Source: Catellatospora tritici
GTDB taxonomy: Bacteria; Actinomycetota; Actinomycetes; Mycobacteriales; Micromonosporaceae
DNA length: 64,000 nt
Assembly: GCF_019083965.1 (NCBI RefSeq)
Contig: NZ_JAHRCY010000003.1
Location: 198,706-262,705, forward strand
Direction: 5' to 3'
Translations under genes and position numbers: made by a program
Part shown: positions 40,354-49,075 of the stretch, in pieces
How positions within the stretch are numbered: the stretch's first letter is position 1
Layout: each line of letters opens with the position of its first letter
The notes under the pieces: model-generated
The model's database searches: none
Seen by the model: only the letters and a program-made list of their open reading frames with translations
What the model was told of the DNA's origin: nothing

Positions 40354-40355
40354 TG

Positions 40356-40409
40356 CGCACTACGCGCAGTACGCGCACTACGCGCAGTACGCGCACTACG
40401 CGCGCTACA
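40356..40409. repeat. Six tandem 9-bp repeats at the 3' end of the P450 gene
   Basis: The unit GCGCACTAC alternates with GCGCAGTAC, then GCGCGCTAC; six copies run from 40356 and the last overlaps the P450 stop codon. It directly abuts repeat B3. Slippage during replication is the simplest origin. Confidence 0.8.
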
Positions 40410-41556
40410 CGACGCGGTCGAGGATCAGGGGGCCGACGGGGCGTAGGGCGATCGCGGCCGACGGGGTCGGGTCGCCCGCCACCTGCGCCAGCTGCCCGTC
40501 GCACCACGGCGCCAGCGCCGCGAGCAGCATCGCGCGGGCCAGGTGCGCGCCCAGGCAGGTGCGGCGGCCCGCGCTGAACGGCAGGAACCCCCAGGCCGGA
40601 CGGCCGTGGTCGGCGAAGCGCCACGGGCGGAACTCGTCCGGGCGCGGCCACAGCGCCGGGTCGCGGTGGGTGAGCAGCGGGGAGTACAGCACCAGCGTGC
40701 GCGCCGGGATCGGCACCCCGGCGACCTCGGTGTCGGTCGAGGTGATCCGGCTGCCGAGCCACCCCGCCGGGTACAGCCGCAGGATCTCGTCCAGCACCAG
40801 CGGCAGCGCGTCCCTGGTACGCCACTCGGGCGCGGCCGCCAGGTGCCACAGCGCCCAGGCGAGGGTGTGCGCGGTGGTGTCGTACCCGGCGGCCAGCGCC
40901 ACCCTGGTCTCGGCCACGGCGTCGTCCATGCCGGACAGCGCGGCGGCGAGGCTGCCCTCGGGCGGATCGGCCAGCACTCGCGCGATGGCCGCGTCCAGGC
41001 GCCGGAACAGCAGCGGCCGGGGCAGCATCGGGCCCGGCACCGGGCCCTCCAGTGGGTGCAGGAACGCCGCGAGCAGCCGGTCGTCGAGCACGCCGCCGAA
41101 GAAGGCCGCGTTCAGCATCCGCCGCACCGTGTCCCCGGCCCAGCTCAGCGCCTCGAACCGGCCGTCGGGCAGCCGTGCCGCCGCCACCTGCGCCAGCCGG
41201 TCGCGCAGATGCGCCAGGCCGCGCGAGTGGAAGTGCGGGTTCAGCTCGCGCCGCCTCGGGTCGTGCGCGGGCACGTCGGTGTAGACCACCCCCGCCGACA
41301 GGTACGGCGTGAGCCCGCTCAGGCTGCCCCGGCTGCGGAACGTGTCCAGGTCGCCGAGGACGGCCCGGTTCCACTCCGGCCGGTAGCCGACCACGGCGGG
41401 CCGCCACAGCCGCAGCCGGAACACCGGCCCGGTCCGGGCGCCCTCGACCAGCAGCCGCACCGGGTCGCGGGTCCACCGCCACAGGTGGCCGAACACCGGC
41501 GTGGTCGCCGGTGCGGGCAGCCGGACCGCCGTGGACCTGGCCGGCAACGTGGTCAC
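40405..41556 (-). CDS. Cytochrome P450, likely carotenoid (beta-ring) hydroxylase
   Basis: 383 aa from GTG 41556, overlapping the glycosyltransferase stop by GTGA. The I-helix is ALAAGYDTTAHTLAWAL (A/GGxDTT), the K-helix is LDEILRLYPAGWLGSR (ExxR) and the haem loop is FLPFSAGRRTCLGAHLA with the axial Cys. The RLYPAGW phrase resembles CYP175A1 of Thermus, a beta-carotene 3-hydroxylase. Last gene of the crtB operon, so its substrate should be the cyclised carotenoid made by CrtYc/CrtYd. Needs ferredoxin and reductase, not encoded here. Regiochemistry is inference. Confidence 0.88.
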   Translation of the reverse strand: MTTLPARSTAVRLPAPATTPVFGHLWRWTRDPVRLLVEGARTGPVFRLRLWRPAVVGYRPEWNRAVLGDLDTFRSRGSLSGLTPYLSAGVVYTDVPAHDPRRRELNPHFHSRGLAHLRDRLAQVAAARLPDGRFEALSWAGDTVRRMLNAAFFGGVLDDRLLAAFLHPLEGPVPGPMLPRPLLFRRLDAAIARVLADPPEGSLAAALSGMDDAVAETRVALAAGYDTTAHTLAWALWHLAAAPEWRTRDALPLVLDEILRLYPAGWLGSRITSTDTEVAGVPIPARTLVLYSPLLTHRDPALWPRPDEFRPWRFADHGRPAWGFLPFSAGRRTCLGAHLARAMLLAALAPWCDGQLAQVAGDPTPSAAIALRPVGPLILDRVV

Positions 41557-42623
41557 GGGTACCGGCGTCCCTTCCAGACGGCGGTGCGCCGCAGCGCCAG
41601 CGCGTACACCGGCAGGGCGGCCGGGGCGGTGAACGGCACCAGTGCCGCCTCGGCGTACGCGCCGCGCCCGGTCTTGGCGTTGGCCAGCAGCCGCTCGGCC
41701 AGGCCGAGCACCGCCGCGAGCCGCCACGCCGCCCCGCGCCGCCACAGCAACCACGGCACCGTGTACGCGGTGACGTTGACCGCGGCACTGGCCGCCAACA
41801 GCAGGTCACTGCCGCCGTGCGCGGCCCGCATGCTCTTGCCCATGCCGCGCACCGTGGCCCGGTAGCCGTCGTACATCCGGGTGCTGATCAGGTCGCCGCC
41901 CAGGGCGAGGCCCAGTTTGAGGCCCTTGCGGCGGCTGAGGCGGGCCAGTTCCAGGTCCTCGACGATCTGGTCGGCGACCGCCGCGTGCCCGCCGACGTGC
42001 TCGTACGCCGCGCGGCGGAACGCCAACAGCTGCCCGTTGGCCACCGCCGCGGCTCGGATCGGCAGGTCCAGCAGCTGGTGCGGCAGGAACGCGAGCAGGT
42101 TCTCGTCGATCAGCGGCACCAGCATCCGCTCGCCGAGGGTGCCGGTCTGCTGGCGCGGGAAGACGCTGAACACGTCGGCCCGCTGGCGGCGCAGCTGGGC
42201 CCAGACCGCGTCGAGGGCGCCCGGCCGCAGCGTGACATCGGCGTCGGCGTACACCAGCAGGTCGCCGGTGGCGGCCTGGGCGAGCTGGTGGCAGGCCCAG
42301 TTCTTGCCGATCCACCCGTCGGGCCGGGGCGCCCCGGTGCTCAGCCGCAGCCGGGGGTCGGCGAAGCCGCGCACGATCGCCGCGGTGTCGTCGGTGGAGC
42401 CGTCGTCGAGGATCAGGATCTCCTCGGCGGGCTGGGCGAGCAGACCCGGGATCGTGTACGGCAGCCGCCGCGCCTCATCCCGCGCGGGCACCAGCAGCGA
42501 CGTCCGGGGCCGTCCCGGCGCCGACTGCCCGCGCGTCAGCGTCGGGAACGAGCGCGCGTTGGCGACCAGCCCCGCCGTCTTGGCCAGGTGGAACGCCGCG
42601 ACCAGGGTGCCTACGACCGCCAC
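41553..42623 (-). CDS. GT2-family glycosyltransferase, CruC-like, carotenoid glycosylation
   Basis: 356 aa from GTG 42623, overlapping the acyltransferase stop by 13 bp. An N-terminal membrane helix precedes the GT2 fold: TSLLVPARDEARRLPYTIP, EEILILDDGSTDDT (first Asp), DLLVYADADVTLRPG (DxD) and ADQIVEDLELARLSRRKG (catalytic Asp region). The last third has two or three membrane helices. CruC-type enzymes glucosylate carotenoid hydroxyls in green sulfur bacteria and actinomycetes; the position next to an acyltransferase mirrors CruC-CruD. Sugar donor (UDP-glucose?) is inference. Confidence 0.85.
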   Translation of the reverse strand: MAVVGTLVAAFHLAKTAGLVANARSFPTLTRGQSAPGRPRTSLLVPARDEARRLPYTIPGLLAQPAEEILILDDGSTDDTAAIVRGFADPRLRLSTGAPRPDGWIGKNWACHQLAQAATGDLLVYADADVTLRPGALDAVWAQLRRQRADVFSVFPRQQTGTLGERMLVPLIDENLLAFLPHQLLDLPIRAAAVANGQLLAFRRAAYEHVGGHAAVADQIVEDLELARLSRRKGLKLGLALGGDLISTRMYDGYRATVRGMGKSMRAAHGGSDLLLAASAAVNVTAYTVPWLLWRRGAAWRLAAVLGLAERLLANAKTGRGAYAEAALVPFTAPAALPVYALALRRTAVWKGRRYP

Positions 42624-43282
42624 GGCAGCGCCCCGGTCAGCCGGTCGATCCGCTCGTCCCGGGCCACCCGCCCGGCCACCACCCGCCGGAACCCGGCCAG
42701 CGGGGTACGCGGATCCGCCACGGCCAGTTGCCCGTCGAGGTTGGCGAGGTCCTGGGCGAGCGTCTCGGTCAGCCGTTCCGTGGTGTGGGCGATCCTGCCC
42801 TTGGCCGGGACCTCGGTGCACGAGACGTACGCCTCCGGGCGGTCGTGGCCGCGCAGCACGACCCGTACCGCGACCGACAGCAGGGGCAGCCCGGCGCGGT
42901 CGGCGTACCAGGCGGCGCCGGGCGACAGCGGGCCGGGCGGGGCCGCCGGGCGCAGTTCGCCCTCGGGGAAGATGACCAGGGTGCGGCCCCGGGCCAGCAG
43001 GCGCAGGCCGGTGCCGAGTTCGGCGGTGCCGAAGACGCCCGCGTGGCGGAAGAACCGGTAGCGGTCCAGGTTCTCCTGGAGCATCAGCAGGCAGGCGGGG
43101 CGCCCGGCCCGGTGCAGCACCGCCGAGGCCACGAACGGGTCCCACCAACTGTGGTGGTTGGCCGCCCAGACGAACGGGCCGACGGGCAGGCCGCCGCGCA
43201 GGTACACCCCGCGCAGCTCGTGGCGCACCATCCGGTCGAAGCCGATCCGCAGCAGGCCGCCGAGCAGACTCGGCTCAGTCAT
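42611..43282 (-). CDS. PlsC-like acyltransferase, CruD-like, carotenoid glycoside esterification
   Basis: 223 aa from ATG 43282, overlapping the crtYd stop by 8 bp. The PlsC motifs are WAANHHSWWDPFVAS (HxxxxD), YRFFRHAGVFG and LVIFPEGELRPA (PEG). This family transfers fatty acyl groups from CoA or ACP. Its placement between the cyclase and glycosyltransferase genes predicts esterification of a carotenoid sugar, as CruD does in chlorobactene glucoside laurate synthesis. A phospholipid role cannot be excluded from sequence alone. Confidence 0.85.
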   Translation of the reverse strand: MTEPSLLGGLLRIGFDRMVRHELRGVYLRGGLPVGPFVWAANHHSWWDPFVASAVLHRAGRPACLLMLQENLDRYRFFRHAGVFGTAELGTGLRLLARGRTLVIFPEGELRPAAPPGPLSPGAAWYADRAGLPLLSVAVRVVLRGHDRPEAYVSCTEVPAKGRIAHTTERLTETLAQDLANLDGQLAVADPRTPLAGFRRVVAGRVARDERIDRLTGALPWRS

Positions 43283-43604
43283 CGGCGCCCCGTTCGGCGC
43301 GGGCCGGGCGTAGCCACAGCCACAGCGACAGCGACAGCGTGACCAGCGCGAACCCGAACCCGTAGTCCTCCACGGGGATGTGCCACGGGGCCCGCAGCCC
43401 GGAGACGGCAGCGTCGCCATAGTGCACGACGGTCGCGTCCCGCCTGGTCAGCCAGCCGTCCACGGGCACCTGGAACGCGAACGCGATGGCCAGGGTGATC
43501 CAGTAGCGGGGGCTGCGCAGCAGTCCGGTACGCAGCACCCCCAGCTCCAGCGCCACCACCGCCAGCGGCGCGACGATCGCGGCGACGGTGTACTCACCGC
43601 CCAC
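43275..43604 (-). CDS. crtYd: Lycopene beta-cyclase subunit CrtYd
   Basis: 109 aa from GTG 43604, with GGTGGGGG six bases upstream; a TTG 32 codons earlier is rejected because those codons lie in repeat A3. Three membrane helices (EYTVAAIVAPLAVVALELGVL, PRYWITLAIAFAFQVPVDG, FGFALVTLSLSLWLWL) and the conserved VPVDGWLTR and IPVEDYGFGF are typical of the heterodimeric cyclase of actinobacteria. With CrtYc it closes both ends of lycopene into beta-rings in the membrane. It overlaps crtYc by 11 bp. Confidence 0.9.
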   Translation of the reverse strand: MGGEYTVAAIVAPLAVVALELGVLRTGLLRSPRYWITLAIAFAFQVPVDGWLTRRDATVVHYGDAAVSGLRAPWHIPVEDYGFGFALVTLSLSLWLWLRPARAERGADD

Positions 43605-44013
43605 GGCCGCCCCCACCGGAGTCGGACCGCGCCACCGTCTCGCCGCTGGCAAGGAAGGGCACCTTCTTGTCGGATTCCGTAGTGGAAGGGCCCCTTCCAA
43701 ACCTGAGCAGGTGGCGGGAGTGCTCGAGGACCTCGAAGGTCAGCAGCGCGCAGAGGGGTACGACGACGAAGAACAGCCACTCCTCGACAGGCAGCCCGAG
43801 CAGCCGGACGCCGGTGGTGTAGCGCGGGTCGAACCACCAGTGCCCGCGTGCGACCGCGGCCAGGTCCCACAGCACGAACAGGGCGACGACCGGGGCGAGC
43901 GCGGCCAGCAGGCGGCGCGGGCGGCGGTAGACGCGGGCGCCGAGCAGCAGTTCCAGCGGCAGGGTCACCGCCAGGCAGGCGGCGAGGATCAGCAGGTAGC
44001 GCAGCCGATCCAT
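43594..44013 (-). CDS. crtYc: Lycopene beta-cyclase subunit CrtYc with repeat-encoded tail
   Basis: 139 aa from ATG 44013, sharing TGATG with the crtB stop. Three membrane helices include LRYLLILAACLAVTLPLEL, RLLAALAPVVALFVLWDLA and LPVEEWLFFVVVPLCALLT with the conserved PVEEWLFF and HWWFDPRYTTG. The heterodimeric-cyclase subunit normally ends about 105 residues in. Here the frame continues through repeat A3 (43651-43703), which encodes about residues 104-121 (with the phrase SDKKVPFL), and then a Gly/Arg-rich end. The core appears intact. Confidence 0.9.
   Translation of the reverse strand: MDRLRYLLILAACLAVTLPLELLLGARVYRRPRRLLAALAPVVALFVLWDLAAVARGHWWFDPRYTTGVRLLGLPVEEWLFFVVVPLCALLTFEVLEHSRHLLRFGRGPSTTESDKKVPFLASGETVARSDSGGGGRGR
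43651..43703 (+). repeat. Family A interspersed 53-bp hairpin repeat, copy A3, inside crtYc
   Basis: Aligns gap-free to A1, A2 and A4 over 53 bp, with two internal stem mismatches. It lies wholly within the crtYc frame, about 50 bp before the crtYd start. On the mRNA of the minus strand it would form a hairpin just upstream of the crtYd ribosome site. Confidence 0.88.
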
Positions 44014-44951
44014 CACGGCACCGGTTGCGGGGACAGCACCGGCGGCGCGGTGACCGGGGTGCCGGGACGGGTGAGCAGGCAGCGGGCGGCCACCGCCAGC
44101 CGCCGCCGGTTCGGCACCACCGCGCGGCGGGCGAACACGTCGTGGTCGGCCGCCTCCACCTCGTCGAGGATGCCCGCGTACAGGTGGTAGGCGGTGCGGA
44201 TGCATGCCTGCGAGGTCGGGGCGAGCATGGTCACCCCGGGCGCGGCCAGGGCGTAGTGCTCGCGGGCGCGGGCGATCTCGAACCGGACCAGCTCGCGTAC
44301 GGCCGTGGTCGAGGTACGACGCTGGGCGCACAGCCGCAGGTCGGCGGTGCTGACCCCGAATCGACGCAGGTCCTCCTGGGGCAGGTAGACCCGGCCACGG
44401 TCGAGGTCCTCGGCGACGTCGCGGATGAAGTTGGTGAGCTGGAAGGCCAGCCCGAGCTGCCGGGCGGGTTCGCGGGCCTGGGCCGGGTCGGCCGGGTCGA
44501 GGATCGGCAGCATCATCGTGCCGATCACCGCCGCCGAGCCCTCCATGTACTCCAGCAGCGCGTCGTAGTCGGCGTACTGCGCGATCTCCAGGTCCATGGC
44601 CATGGAGTGCAGGAACGAGGCGAAGTCGGCGCGGTCGAGGTCGAACGCGGCGATGGTGTGCAGCACCGCGGGCAGCAGCGGGTCATCGACGCGGGCGCCG
44701 TGCAGCCCGGCCACGAACCGGTCCGACCAGTCGCGCAGCAGCCGGGCCCGTTCGGCGGGCGGCAGCTCCTCGGTGCGGTCGACGATCTCGTCGGCGTGGC
44801 GGGTGAAGCCGTAGAGGGCGTGGACATGAGGCCGCTTGGCGGCCGGCAGTAGGCGAGTGGCCAGGTAGTAGGTGCGGCCGTGCTGTCGATGCAGCTCCCG
44901 GCAGCGGGCGTACGCCGCCGTCAGCTCCGCCTCCATGACTTGCGGCTCCAC
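44013..44951 (-). CDS. crtB: Phytoene synthase CrtB
   Basis: 312 aa from GTG 44951, with GGGGAGGG just upstream. Squalene/phytoene synthase fold with both aspartate motifs: YGFTRHADEIVDRTE (DxxxD, residues about 50-58) and FIRDVAEDLDRGRVYLP (DxxxD). It condenses two geranylgeranyl diphosphates head to head into phytoene. First gene of the six-gene overlapping operon and divergent from crtE, which supplies its substrate. Confidence 0.95.
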   Translation of the reverse strand: MEPQVMEAELTAAYARCRELHRQHGRTYYLATRLLPAAKRPHVHALYGFTRHADEIVDRTEELPPAERARLLRDWSDRFVAGLHGARVDDPLLPAVLHTIAAFDLDRADFASFLHSMAMDLEIAQYADYDALLEYMEGSAAVIGTMMLPILDPADPAQAREPARQLGLAFQLTNFIRDVAEDLDRGRVYLPQEDLRRFGVSTADLRLCAQRRTSTTAVRELVRFEIARAREHYALAAPGVTMLAPTSQACIRTAYHLYAGILDEVEAADHDVFARRAVVPNRRRLAVAARCLLTRPGTPVTAPPVLSPQPVP

Positions 44952-45012
44952 AAGCCCTCCCCAAATCGACTCAGTAATCGACGCAACTTCGACTCTACGC
45001 TAGTCTTGCCCC
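44952..45012. promoter_or_regulatory. Divergent crtB/crtE promoter region with phased direct repeats
   Basis: This 61-bp gap must hold both promoters. Three near-identical heptamers TCGAC(T/G)C start at 44966, 44978 and 44989, about one helical turn apart, suggesting a bound regulator on one face of the DNA. TACGCT/TAGTCT at 44996-45006 could be the crtE -10 box; GTG 45013 follows without a ribosome site, so the crtE mRNA is probably leaderless or nearly so. Confidence 0.6.
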
Positions 45013-46164
45013 GTGGCAAACGACACCTCTTCCGCTCCTGCCTCCATGCTCGCCGCTCCAACTGTCGCCACCTGCGAAAACGGCCATCGTGCCGTAGTGG
45101 CCGGTCCGGCGGAGCTGCCCGCCGTCGTCGAGCGCGTGCTGGCCGACTTCGTCCGCGAGGAGAGCGCCGCGCTGATGGCGGTGGATTCGGCCCTGCAACC
45201 GCTGGTCGCCGCCGCTCGGGCCGCGGTGCTCGGCGGGGGCAAGCGGGTACGGCCGCTGTTCGCGTACTGGGGTTGGCGCAGCGCCGCCGGGCCGCACGCG
45301 CCGCTGCACCGGGTGCTGCCCGCGCTGGCGGCCCTCGAACTGCTGCACGCGTTCGCGCTGGTCCACGACGATGTGATGGACCGCTCCGCGACCCGACGCG
45401 GCCGCCCCACCGCGCACCGGCAGCTGGCCGCCGCGCACGCCACCCAGCGGCTGCGCGGCGACGCCGACCGGTTCGGCGACGCGGGCGCGATCCTCGTCGG
45501 TGACCTGTGCCTGGTGTGGGCCGACCGGCTGATGGCCCGCGCCGACGTGCCCGCCGCGGTGCTGGCCACCGCCCGCGCCGCCTACGACCGGATGCGGGTC
45601 GAGGCGGTGGCCGGCCAGTTCCTGGACGTGCTCGGCGACCATGCCCGCACCTGGTCGCCCGAGCGGGCCCTGCGCACCGCCCGGCTCAAGACCGCCGGGT
45701 ACACCGCCACCTGGCCGCTGCACTTCGGTGCCGCGCTGGCCGGATCGGGCGGGGCCGCGTTCGCGCACGGGCCGCTGGGCCGCGCCTTCACCAACTACGG
45801 CCTGGCCGTCGGCGAGGCGTTCCAGCTGCGCGACGACCTGCTCGGCCTGTATGGCGAACCCGCCGTCACCGGCAAGCCCGTCGGCGACGACCTCGGCAAA
45901 CCCACCATGCTGCTGCTGCTCGCCCGGCAGGCGGGCACCGCCGCCCAGCGCGCCGAACTCGACGCGATCCTGGCCGCGCCGCGCCCCGACGTGGCCCGCC
46001 TGGCCGCCGCGGTCCGGGTCACGGGCGCCGCCGAGCAGCTCAGTGACATGATCGGCGAGCGGGTGGCCGACGCCCGCGCCGCGCTGGCGGCGGCGCCGAT
46101 GCCCGAGGTCGTCCGCGACGGGCTGGGCGAGCTGGCCGCCACAGTCGCCTGGCGCGCGGCATGA
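45013..46164 (+). CDS. crtE: Polyprenyl (geranylgeranyl) diphosphate synthase
   Basis: 383 aa from GTG 45013. The first aspartate-rich motif is ALVHDDVMDRSATRRGRPT (DDxxD), the second AFQLRDDLLGLYGEP (DDxxG), with GGGKRVRPLF near residue 75 binding diphosphate. It elongates DMAPP or FPP with IPP to GGPP, the precursor used by CrtB. It overlaps crtI by ATGA. Leading residues 1-30 are poorly conserved in the family, consistent with a start anywhere near this GTG. Confidence 0.9.
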   Translation: MANDTSSAPASMLAAPTVATCENGHRAVVAGPAELPAVVERVLADFVREESAALMAVDSALQPLVAAARAAVLGGGKRVRPLFAYWGWRSAAGPHAPLHRVLPALAALELLHAFALVHDDVMDRSATRRGRPTAHRQLAAAHATQRLRGDADRFGDAGAILVGDLCLVWADRLMARADVPAAVLATARAAYDRMRVEAVAGQFLDVLGDHARTWSPERALRTARLKTAGYTATWPLHFGAALAGSGGAAFAHGPLGRAFTNYGLAVGEAFQLRDDLLGLYGEPAVTGKPVGDDLGKPTMLLLLARQAGTAAQRAELDAILAAPRPDVARLAAAVRVTGAAEQLSDMIGERVADARAALAAAPMPEVVRDGLGELAATVAWRAA

Positions 46165-47657
46165 GCACGAGGAAAGAGGCGGGGATGCGTACCGTGACCG
46201 GGCCGACGGAGCGGGTGGTGGTGGTCGGCGCCGGGCTGGGCGGCCTGGCCTGCGCACTGCACCTGGCGGGCACCGGACGGCAGGTGACCGTGCTCGAACG
46301 CGAGACCGAGCCGGGCGGCCGGGCCGGGCGCCTGCTGCGCGACGGGTACGAGTTCGACACCGGCCCGACCGTGCTGACCATGCCCGAACTGATCGCCGAG
46401 GCGTTCGCCGCGGTCGGCGAGGAGCTGGCCGACTGGCTCACCCTCACCCCGCTCGACCCGGCGTACCGGGCCTGGTTCCCGGACGGGTCGAAGCTCGACG
46501 TCATCGCCGATCCGGCCCGGATGGCCGAGGAGATCGCCGCGGTGTGCGGGCGGGCCGAGGCCGACGGGTACCTGCGCTTCGTCGCGTACGCCCGCCGCCT
46601 GTGGGAGCTGGAGCGAAACGACTTCATCGACCGCAACTTCGACAGCCCCCGCGACCTGCTCACCGCCAACCTGCTGCGGCTGGTCGCGGCCGGTGCCTTC
46701 GGCCGCCTGCAGTCGCGCATCGGCCACTTCCTGAAGGACCCCCGCACCCGCCGGGTCTTCTCCTTCCAGGCCATGTACGCGGGCCTGTCCCCGCACAAGG
46801 CCCTGGCCGTCTACACGGTGATCTCCTACCTGGACTCCGTCGCCGGGGTGTACTTCCCGCACGGCGGCATGCACGCCGTCCCGCGCGCGCTGGCCGCGGC
46901 GGGGGAGAAGCACGGCGTGGTCATGCGCTACGGCACCGAGGTGGCCCGAGTCGAGTCGCGCGGCGGCCGTGCCACCGCCGTGGTGACCACGTCCGGGGAG
47001 CGGATCCCGGCTGACGCGGTGGTGCTCAACCCTGACACCACCGCCGCGCACGCGCTGGTCACCGGTGCCGTGCCACGTCGACGGCTGCGTTACTCGCCCT
47101 CGTGCGTGGTGCTGCACGTCGGCTCCGACCGCGAGTACACCAAGGCCGGACACCACAACATCCACTTCGGGCGGGCGTGGCGGTCGACGTTCGACGAGGT
47201 GATCACGCGCGGGCGGCTGATGAGCGACCCGTCGCTGCTGGTCACCAACCCCAGCCGCACCGACCCGACCGTCGCCCCGCCCGGCGGGCACACGTACTAC
47301 GTGCTCGCGCCCGTGCCGAACCTGGTCACCGGGGACCAGGACTGGCGCGGCGGGCTGGCCGAGGCATACGCCGACGAGCTGGTCGAGGTGCTGGAGCGGC
47401 GCGGGTACGTCGGCTTCGGCGACGGCATCCGCACCCGCCACGTGGTGACCCCCGCCGACTGGGCCGACGCCGGGATGGCGGCGGGCACCCCGTTCGCGGC
47501 CGCGCACACGCTCACCCAGTCGGGCCCGTTCCGGCCCCGCAACCTGCACCCGACCCTGTCCAACGTGGTCTTCACCGGTTCGGGCACCACGCCGGGCGTC
47601 GGCGTGCCGATGGTGCTGATCTCGGGCAAGCTCGCCGCCGCCCGCATCACCGGCTGA
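46161..47657 (+). CDS. crtI: Phytoene desaturase CrtI
   Basis: 498 aa from ATG 46161 (ATG 46185 is an alternative with GAGGCGGGG upstream). FAD-binding Rossmann motif VVVVGAGLGGLACALHLAGTG, then LERETEPGGRAGRLLRDGYEFDTGPTVLTMP, and the C-terminal carotenoid-oxidoreductase signature with FTGSGTTPGVGVPMVLISGK. It desaturates phytoene stepwise to lycopene. Co-translated with crtE; followed by a bidirectional terminator. Confidence 0.95.
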   Translation: MSTRKEAGMRTVTGPTERVVVVGAGLGGLACALHLAGTGRQVTVLERETEPGGRAGRLLRDGYEFDTGPTVLTMPELIAEAFAAVGEELADWLTLTPLDPAYRAWFPDGSKLDVIADPARMAEEIAAVCGRAEADGYLRFVAYARRLWELERNDFIDRNFDSPRDLLTANLLRLVAAGAFGRLQSRIGHFLKDPRTRRVFSFQAMYAGLSPHKALAVYTVISYLDSVAGVYFPHGGMHAVPRALAAAGEKHGVVMRYGTEVARVESRGGRATAVVTTSGERIPADAVVLNPDTTAAHALVTGAVPRRRLRYSPSCVVLHVGSDREYTKAGHHNIHFGRAWRSTFDEVITRGRLMSDPSLLVTNPSRTDPTVAPPGGHTYYVLAPVPNLVTGDQDWRGGLAEAYADELVEVLERRGYVGFGDGIRTRHVVTPADWADAGMAAGTPFAAAHTLTQSGPFRPRNLHPTLSNVVFTGSGTTPGVGVPMVLISGKLAAARITG

Positions 47658-47708: not shown

Positions 47709-48119
47709 TCACGGCGCCGGTTCGGTGATCCGCTTGCCGAGGTTGACGAAGAACAGGATCAGCCCGACCGTCAGCGCGAGGTGCCCGAGCCCGGAGATCC
47801 AGGCCAGGGCCTCGCCGGTCGGCTTGCCGTAGACCGTGAGCGTGCCCTTGACCGCCATCATGGCGGTGGTCAGCGCCAGGCCCGCGTTGTACGTCCAGAA
47901 GAAGCCGTCGAACAGCTTCCCCGCGCTCAGGGTGAAGGCCTTCTCCAGGGCCAGCACGATGAGGAAGAACAGCATGCCCAGCGCGAGCAGGTGCGGGTGC
48001 AGCACGCTCAGCTGTGTCGGTCCGGTGTAGTCGGCCAGCTTGGTGACCTCGCGGTACGCCAGACCGCTGACCAGGCCGAGGATCATGTACGTGTGCGCGG
48101 CGTAGTAGCTCTTTCTCAT
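47709..48119 (-). CDS. DUF2871 membrane protein
   Basis: 136 aa from ATG 48119. Four membrane helices: YYAAHTYMILGLVSGLAYRE, LHPHLLALGMLFFLIVLALE, WTYNAGLALTTAMMAVKG and LGHLALTVGLILFFVNLG. The HPHLLALGMLFF segment, with its two His residues, matches DUF2871 proteins and could bind haem or metal. Function unknown. It converges on crtI. A long palindrome lies 47 bp upstream of its start. Confidence 0.8.
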   Translation of the reverse strand: MRKSYYAAHTYMILGLVSGLAYREVTKLADYTGPTQLSVLHPHLLALGMLFFLIVLALEKAFTLSAGKLFDGFFWTYNAGLALTTAMMAVKGTLTVYGKPTGEALAWISGLGHLALTVGLILFFVNLGKRITEPAP

Positions 48120-48165
48120 GCGCGCACCGGCTTTCCTCCACGCAATGTGGACTCCGTTGGTTCGA

Positions 48166-48604: not shown

Positions 48605-49075
48605 ATGAGCGAAGCGGGCACGCGGGTCGCGACACCGGGGTTCCTGGTCTGGCGACTGTCCATGAAGTTCCGGGTCGCGGTCGACCGCGCGGTGGCGCCC
48701 CTCGGCCTCACCCACGCGCAGTACTCCGTGCTCGCGTCGCTGTACGGCATGCAGCACGCGGGCGAGAGCCCCAGTCAGCGGCGCCTGGCCGACCACACCG
48801 GCCTCGAGCCGCTCTACATCTCCAAACTGGCCCGCGGCCTCGAAGTCGCCGGGTTGGTCGACCGCGCCCCCGACCCCGACGACACCCGGGCGGTGCGGCT
48901 CACTTTGACCGACCGCGGCCGCGAAACCACCGCACAGGCCGTCGTCATCGTCCGTGACCTCCAGGAACGCCTGCTCGCCCCGTTGGGCGGCCTCGGCGGC
49001 GAGCGCGCCGCGGCGTTCGTACGCGACCTGACCGCCCTGCTCGCCACCCCGCTCGACCCCAGGGAGAAGCCATGA
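48605..49075 (+). CDS. MarR-family transcriptional regulator
   Basis: 156 aa from ATG 48605. The winged helix reads PLGLTHAQYSVLASLYGMQ, then QRRLADHTGLEPLYISKLARGLEVAGLV, then RAPDPDDTRAVRLTLTDRGRE, the MarR recognition helix and beta-wing. It is coupled by ATGA to a second HTH-like gene. Its ligand is unknown. The nearest non-self target is the neighbouring gap with the palindromes. Confidence 0.9.
   Translation: MSEAGTRVATPGFLVWRLSMKFRVAVDRAVAPLGLTHAQYSVLASLYGMQHAGESPSQRRLADHTGLEPLYISKLARGLEVAGLVDRAPDPDDTRAVRLTLTDRGRETTAQAVVIVRDLQERLLAPLGGLGGERAAAFVRDLTALLATPLDPREKP

Follow-up and report, generated by a model that had tools for sequence, protein, structure and literature searches.

Carotenoid glycoside esters are known from Thermus, where the cytochrome P450 enzyme CYP175A1 hydroxylates beta-carotene and the esters are the thermozeaxanthins (PMC5015936). 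Known carotenoid glycoside esters also accompany the gene clusters of Meiothermus (PMC4929516). The pigment of Meiothermus ruber is a beta,psi-caroten-2-one glucoside, and the Meiothermus beta-ring is a 3,4-didehydro-2-one (PMC4929516, PMC4384146). A third system is that of Deinococcus radiodurans, whose P450 CYP287A1 is described as the 2-beta-hydroxylase of deinoxanthin (PMC6950390). The locus analysed here consists of eight carotenoid genes, among them genes for a P450, a GT2 glycosyltransferase and a PlsC-type acyltransferase, in a 64,000-nucleotide stretch of the actinomycete Catellatospora tritici (hereafter the window, meaning the whole stretch that was analysed). This locus probably makes a hydroxylated beta-carotene glycoside fatty ester, by means of a P450 of the Meiothermus type that would act within a Thermus-type scheme without CruF and CrtD.

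The cluster on pTT27 of Thermus thermophilus HB27 runs crtB-phr-CYP175A1-fused lycopene cyclase-PlsC-GT2 and also holds crtI-fni. The window has the same four functions side by side on one strand, the minus strand. They are the P450 (40405..41556; 383 amino acids; PF00067, 2.1e-40), predicted to be a beta-ring carotenoid hydroxylase; the GT2 enzyme (41553..42623; 356 amino acids from a GTG start at 42623; PF00535, 2e-18), predicted to glycosylate the hydroxylated carotenoid; the PlsC-type acyltransferase (42611..43282; PF01553, 6.4e-10), predicted to acylate the sugar; and a CarR-type, heterodimeric lycopene beta-cyclase encoded by crtYd (43275..43604) and crtYc (43594..44013), both with lycopene cyclase domains (PF18916/TIGR03462) and with 67 and 77 bits respectively to TIGR03462 (cut-off 39.4). 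The two clusters differ in that the cyclase is fused in Thermus and split in two in the window, the P450 comes first there and last here, the Thermus P450 is from another family, and the host of the window belongs to the Actinomycetota. The GT2 of the window is 46% and its acyltransferase 42% identical to the Thermus counterparts, with the catalytic motifs aligned, and the GT2 is 46–48% identical to the carotenoid-cluster GT2s of T. thermophilus, Meiothermus taiwanensis and Deinococcus deserti. In a tree of 35 GT2 rows, those of Thermus, Deinococcus, Meiothermus and the actinobacterial cassettes stand together, while eight CruF-associated glycosyltransferases from the host's own family, the Micromonosporaceae, stand apart (100/100). 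No CruF or CrtD is annotated in the 16-kb stretch of Thermus that was read, and a profile search of the host genome (9.59 Mb in 47 contigs) found no CruF (PF04240). The shared cassette, the GT2 and PlsC identities, the GT2 tree and the absence of CruF support a scheme of hydroxylation, glycosylation and acylation parallel to that of Thermus. This is what the preliminary description of the locus had proposed, and its remark that CruF is missing at the locus proves to hold for the whole genome.

We infer each catalytic step, as well as the product. CrtE, CrtB and CrtI would lead to lycopene, in which CrtYc/CrtYd would close the beta-rings to give beta-carotene. The P450 would then place a hydroxyl at C2 or C3 of either one beta-ring or both, the GT2 would add a sugar to it, and the PlsC-type enzyme would esterify that sugar with a fatty acid. 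In the absence of the 1,2-hydratase CruF, the GT2 has no evident supplier of a hydroxyl other than the P450, the part that CYP175A1 plays in Thermus. Alignments show that the catalytic motifs of the three modifying enzymes are intact. The P450 has its heme cysteine at Cys334, the acid-alcohol pair D226-T227 and E257xxR260, all of them conserved without or almost without exception in 19 P450s, and its AlphaFold2 (AF2) model adopts the P450 fold with a predicted TM-score (pTM) of 0.85. The GT2 keeps the DAD and ED motifs when aligned with carotenoid-cluster GT2s, and the acyltransferase bears NHHSWWD and FPEG.

The remaining genes of the locus are crtB for phytoene synthase (44013..44951; minus strand; SQS_PSY PF00494, 1.2e-73) and, on the plus strand, crtE for geranylgeranyl diphosphate synthase (45013..46164; polyprenyl synthetase PF00348, 8.1e-45) and crtI for phytoene desaturase (46161..47657; TIGR02734, 523 bits against a cut-off of 238). 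The latter two overlap by 4 bases and diverge from crtB across a 61-base gap, and with the starts chosen the six minus-strand neighbours share 1 to 13 bases. Reading of the open reading frames together with Pfam and NCBIfam domain scans thus confirmed the positions and strands of all eight genes, six overlapping on one strand and two divergent, as first described. The domain scans also bear out the earlier statement that CrtU and CrtZ are lacking at the locus.

The cassette is well conserved within the family. Protein searches with the P450 and the GT2 were carried out over 150 Micromonosporaceae genomes, host included. The P450 was found in 22 of them (host counted), spread over seven of the 44 genera, and the GT2 was present at 61–100% identity in exactly the same 22. 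In the 21 relatives the surroundings of the P450 were read over up to 20 kb, one of these stretches (L040) being only a 6.7-kb contig. All 21 keep the order Yc-Yd-PlsC-GT2-P450 on one strand, the P450 adjoining the GT2 each time, and because this five-gene order is the same throughout, the linkage is far beyond chance. The union of a P450 with a Yc/Yd cyclase, expected at first to be unusual for an actinomycete, is therefore not peculiar to one strain. Beside the cassette, crtB occurs in 20 of the 21 stretches, crtI in 19 and crtE in 16. Among named relatives the closest P450 is that of Catellatospora sp. KI3 (91%), followed by those of six more Catellatospora loci (77–80%). A photolyase gene lies directly 5' of crtYc in six of the 21 loci; five of these six have it right after crtB, between crtB and the cassette as in Thermus, and in the sixth the gene is at a contig end. 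In a seventh locus the photolyase lies about 2 kb beyond crtI. A CarH-like regulator was found in 12 of the relatives' stretches (26–30% identity, E 1e-5) and was not found in the window, where the best match had an E value of 0.14. Outside the family, a metagenome-assembled genome of the Geodermatophilaceae (L071) has PlsC-GT2-P450 together and Yd-Yc-crtB-crtI on the opposite strand.

The same family also contains loci of another kind. At a cut-off of E 1e-40 the GT2 search matched 108 of the 150 genomes, namely the 22 with the P450 and 86 others, in which identity is only 37–45%. In all eight of the latter loci that were read, CruF-like and CrtI/CrtD-like genes flank this other glycosyltransferase, and the gene content together with PMC5765111 suggests that the CruF-GT-CrtD loci are sioxanthin-type. 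Such loci resemble the cassette in concerning a glycosylated carotenoid in Micromonosporaceae and in using a glycosyltransferase of the same wide family, but they have CruF and CrtD where the cassette has the P450 and PlsC. Their frequency, and the constancy of their neighbours, would be what one expects if the locus were an ordinary sioxanthin- or isorenieratene-type one with a P450 present by chance. This explanation is nevertheless highly improbable. The eight glycosyltransferases read form a clade separate from that of the cassette, the P450 adjoins its own GT2 at every locus, and at the cut-off used the other glycosyltransferase occurs in none of the 22 P450 genomes and in 86 of the remaining 128 (Fisher p = 6e-10, not corrected for relatedness), so that the two are mutually exclusive in this sample at that cut-off. 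PF04240 is found in 91 of the 150 genomes, comprising all 86 with the other glycosyltransferase, three more and two of the 22; the other 20 P450-bearing genomes are without any PF04240 protein. The single match in the host at E 1e-40 belongs to the cassette clade and not to the CruF-type clade, and with CruF absent the sioxanthin pathway was rejected for this locus.

The P450 turned out to be of a different kind from the one first suspected. It had been called CYP175-like on the strength of a K-helix reading RLYPAGW. The motif is there, in the ExxR stretch EILRLYPAGW, but the likeness to CYP175 was not upheld. CYP175A1 has RLYPPAW and the Meiothermus P450s have RLYPPGF or similar, so that RLYP is common to both groups and is no proof of CYP175 kinship. 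By convention, members of a P450 family are at least about 40% identical to another member; identity to CYP175A1 of T. thermophilus HB27 is 27%, which places the window P450 outside CYP175. A scan of named genomes gave 23 loci, of which 18 are actinobacterial, four are from Meiothermus (49–51% identity) and one is L076 (46%). A search of 111 genomes from the phylum of Meiothermus found this kind of P450 in 23, all with E values no worse than 2.3e-148, and a split copy in a further genome; in the same search the Thermus-type P450s score near 1e-30. The phylogeny that had been suggested as a check points the same way. In a tree of 49 P450s, 18 actinobacterial and 13 Meiothermus-type rows form one clade (100/100), although the program warns of long branches, while the five Thermus-type rows stand apart, nearest to the second Meiothermus P450s and one P450 of the host, and weakly so (90/86). 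When other host P450s were compared with a profile of the cassette P450s, three of the seven tried outscored CYP175A1 of strain HB27, and the same three outscored that of strain JL-18. On these identities, search scores, tree and profile comparison, the window P450 is placed with the Meiothermus P450s and not with CYP175.

The position of the hydroxyl depends on how this placement is weighed. If the P450 were a C3 (3-beta) hydroxylase like CYP175A1, the product would be a zeaxanthin or cryptoxanthin glucoside ester of the thermozeaxanthin or thermocryptoxanthin type, as the preliminary description had predicted. Thermus has the same cassette, and a search of the Protein Data Bank (PDB) showed that both CYP175A1 sequences align with almost the whole length of the P450 (residues 27–341, E about 1e-11), whereas the other 49 of the 51 matches begin only at residue 210; on this C-terminal part CYP184A1, CYP170A1 and CYP3A enzymes outscore CYP175A1. 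Forcing the cassette and Thermus P450s into a common clade costs 15.9 log-likelihood units (lnL) and is neither supported nor rejected by the approximately unbiased (AU) test (p = 0.0823). The low identity, the separate clades with long stems and the fact that the nearest kin outside the actinobacteria are Meiothermus-type P450s, from a genus in which M. ruber bears its oxygen at C2, make a C3 hydroxylase a possibility on the doubtful side. The prediction of a hydroxylated glycoside ester thus stands, and its C3 position is not established, since with a P450 that is kin to those of Meiothermus and not CYP175-like, the likely outcomes number at least two, and zeaxanthin or cryptoxanthin is only one of them.

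Another outcome would be a 2-hydroxy-beta-carotene glycoside ester made by a C2 (2-beta) hydroxylase functionally like CYP287A1. We know of no carotenoid class of this kind, nor of any characterised member of the cassette P450 family. The most informative comparison is the gene row of M. taiwanensis (L074), which reads crtB, CrtO-like, CrtL-type cyclase, CruF, PlsC, GT2, CrtD and P450 (all named by best NCBIfam matches below cut-off). It has a P450 of the same clade and PlsC-GT2 in the same row; it differs in its CrtO-like, CrtL-type, CruF-like and CrtD-like genes, and in a pigment with one ring only and the sugar on the acyclic end. CruF and CrtD would serve that sugar-bearing end, so that the ring would fall to the CrtO-like protein and the P450. 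In most of the Meiothermus-type loci read, the P450 has other carotenoid genes as neighbours (at L075 the contig starts at the P450); in Meiothermus loci, including L074:8989-10092, it may be the enzyme that introduces the C2 oxygen seen in M. ruber. This role in the ring is only a candidate one; the genome paper credits the 2-one group to CrtO, and 'P450' does not occur in its text (PMC4384146). CYP287A1 resembles the window enzyme in its described activity, as a P450 acting on a carotenoid beta-ring (PMC6950390). A C2 hydroxylase is accordingly no more than a tentative choice. Given the C2 oxygen in M. ruber and the C2 hydroxylase of D. radiodurans, C2 would still be a serious candidate, at least as likely as C3; the two positions appear about equally likely, with C2 slightly ahead. 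Deinoxanthin, to our knowledge, has no glycoside. In the actinobacterium Brevibacterium linens a crtYc/Yd cluster goes with a P450 step that leads to 3-hydroxy-isorenieratenes, whose aromatic rings are made via CrtU and which are not known to carry a glycoside or an acyl group.

It may also be that the sugar is attached elsewhere, at an acyclic end or an acid, and that the P450 carries out ketolation, further desaturation or oxidation to an acid. The Meiothermus ring, being more than simply hydroxylated, is in keeping with this, as is the presence in the host genome of an additional CrtI and of CrtO-like and CrtD/isomerase-like proteins. We consider it unlikely, as the genome is without CruF to make a 1-hydroxyl, and neither in the actinobacterial loci nor in Thermus does the cassette include a CrtD-like gene. 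Several observations also weigh against the hydroxylated beta-carotene glycoside ester itself. In Meiothermus the same P450 family occurs beside CruF, with the sugar on the 1'-OH of the acyclic end (PMC4929516, PMC4384146), so that the hydroxyl that receives the sugar does not always have to come from the P450. Two loci of Deinococcota (L170 and L174, the latter with its P450 cut at a contig end) are without a GT2 near the P450. Two of the 22 P450 genomes, both Catellatospora (L183-L185), hold PF04240 proteins 25–33% identical to Meiothermus-type CruF. A crude pattern scan found no ferredoxin gene 3' of the P450 in the 21 loci. The host also has, elsewhere, a second CrtYc/Yd-like pair and the second CrtI, CrtO-like and CrtD/isomerase-like proteins, which could change the product.

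The second CrtYc/Yd-like pair of the host is intact (L163:9798-10372, that is G000:C46:298798-299372) and adjoins what appear by eye to be genes for a polyprenyl synthase, a small DNA-binding protein and a likely mannosyltransferase. The second CrtI, on C45, is 59% identical to that of the window and overlaps an idi-like gene (isopentenyl diphosphate isomerase by eye; L167:4798-6803). The CrtO-like protein on C9 and the CrtD/isomerase-like one on C43 are both far below the NCBIfam equivalog cut-offs. Two proteins of the FA_hydroxylase family were found, of 288 and 309 amino acids; no NCBIfam model fits them at 1e-15, and CrtZ is much shorter. Neither they nor several flavin adenine dinucleotide (FAD) oxidoreductases elsewhere in the genome were assigned to CrtZ or CrtU, and of nine distinct PF01593 places the eight scanned, the window crtI among them, gave none named CrtU, for which NCBIfam may lack a model. 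No UbiA gene, the kind that would encode the lycopene elongase CrtEb of the C50 pathway, lies in the locus. Six of the eight UbiA places in the genome were scanned, the second member of two equal-score pairs being left out; five were assigned, or came closest, to the heme o, MqnP, MenA-like (below cut-off) and SCO3242 types, and L179 was left unassigned. The 13-kb stretches around the Catellatospora PF04240 genes held no convincing carotenoid gene, the best being a 33-residue match at E 0.005; these proteins appear to be a CruF paralogue.

Some further features were observed. At and after the stop codon of the P450 gene lies a tandem repeat (window 40355-40408) of the 18-base unit GCGCACTACGCGCAGTAC, in 2.7 copies with 100% match. 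A DUF2871 gene and a MarR-type regulator follow 3' of crtI (47709-48122 and 48605-49075). The host has a flavin amine oxidase frame that seems circularly permuted, with profile positions 371-442 ahead of 1-352 in one open frame; it exists in two identical 3.9-kb copies (L117:1231-2478 and L118; G000:C34 and C43), perhaps an assembly duplicate. At L076:4580-5980 and L169:13300-14757 a CarR-type lycopene cyclase and a CruF-like domain appear to be fused in one frame (by eye and tblastn), adjoining PlsC-GT2-CrtD-P450. In L168 (G644:C201:1-9105), from a genome searched as Deinococcota, the P450 and GT2 group with, or adjacent to, their actinobacterial counterparts, and no CrtD stands between the two genes, which may reflect a transfer route or a misbinned contig.

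On this analysis, soil actinomycetes that can be cultured are predicted to make a carotenoid glycoside ester, and a P450 family emerges as a candidate carotenoid ring hydroxylase. The same family might also account for the C2 oxygen in M. ruber, which the genome paper credited to CrtO (PMC4384146). The division of the Micromonosporaceae sample into 22 genomes of the P450 type and 86 of the CruF-GT type, with no overlap, offers a natural experiment on the replacement of one glycosylated carotenoid by another. More speculatively, a lineage of the Actinomycetota may have exchanged a CruF-based glycosylated carotenoid for a cassette of Deinococcota kin, whose P450 would hydroxylate both rings at C2 to yield the 2-hydroxy-beta-carotene glycoside ester. 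The soil bacterium shares its gene set with bacteria of hot springs and probably places a hydroxyl, a sugar and a fatty acid on beta-carotene, by way of a hydroxylase that is not of the type first suspected.

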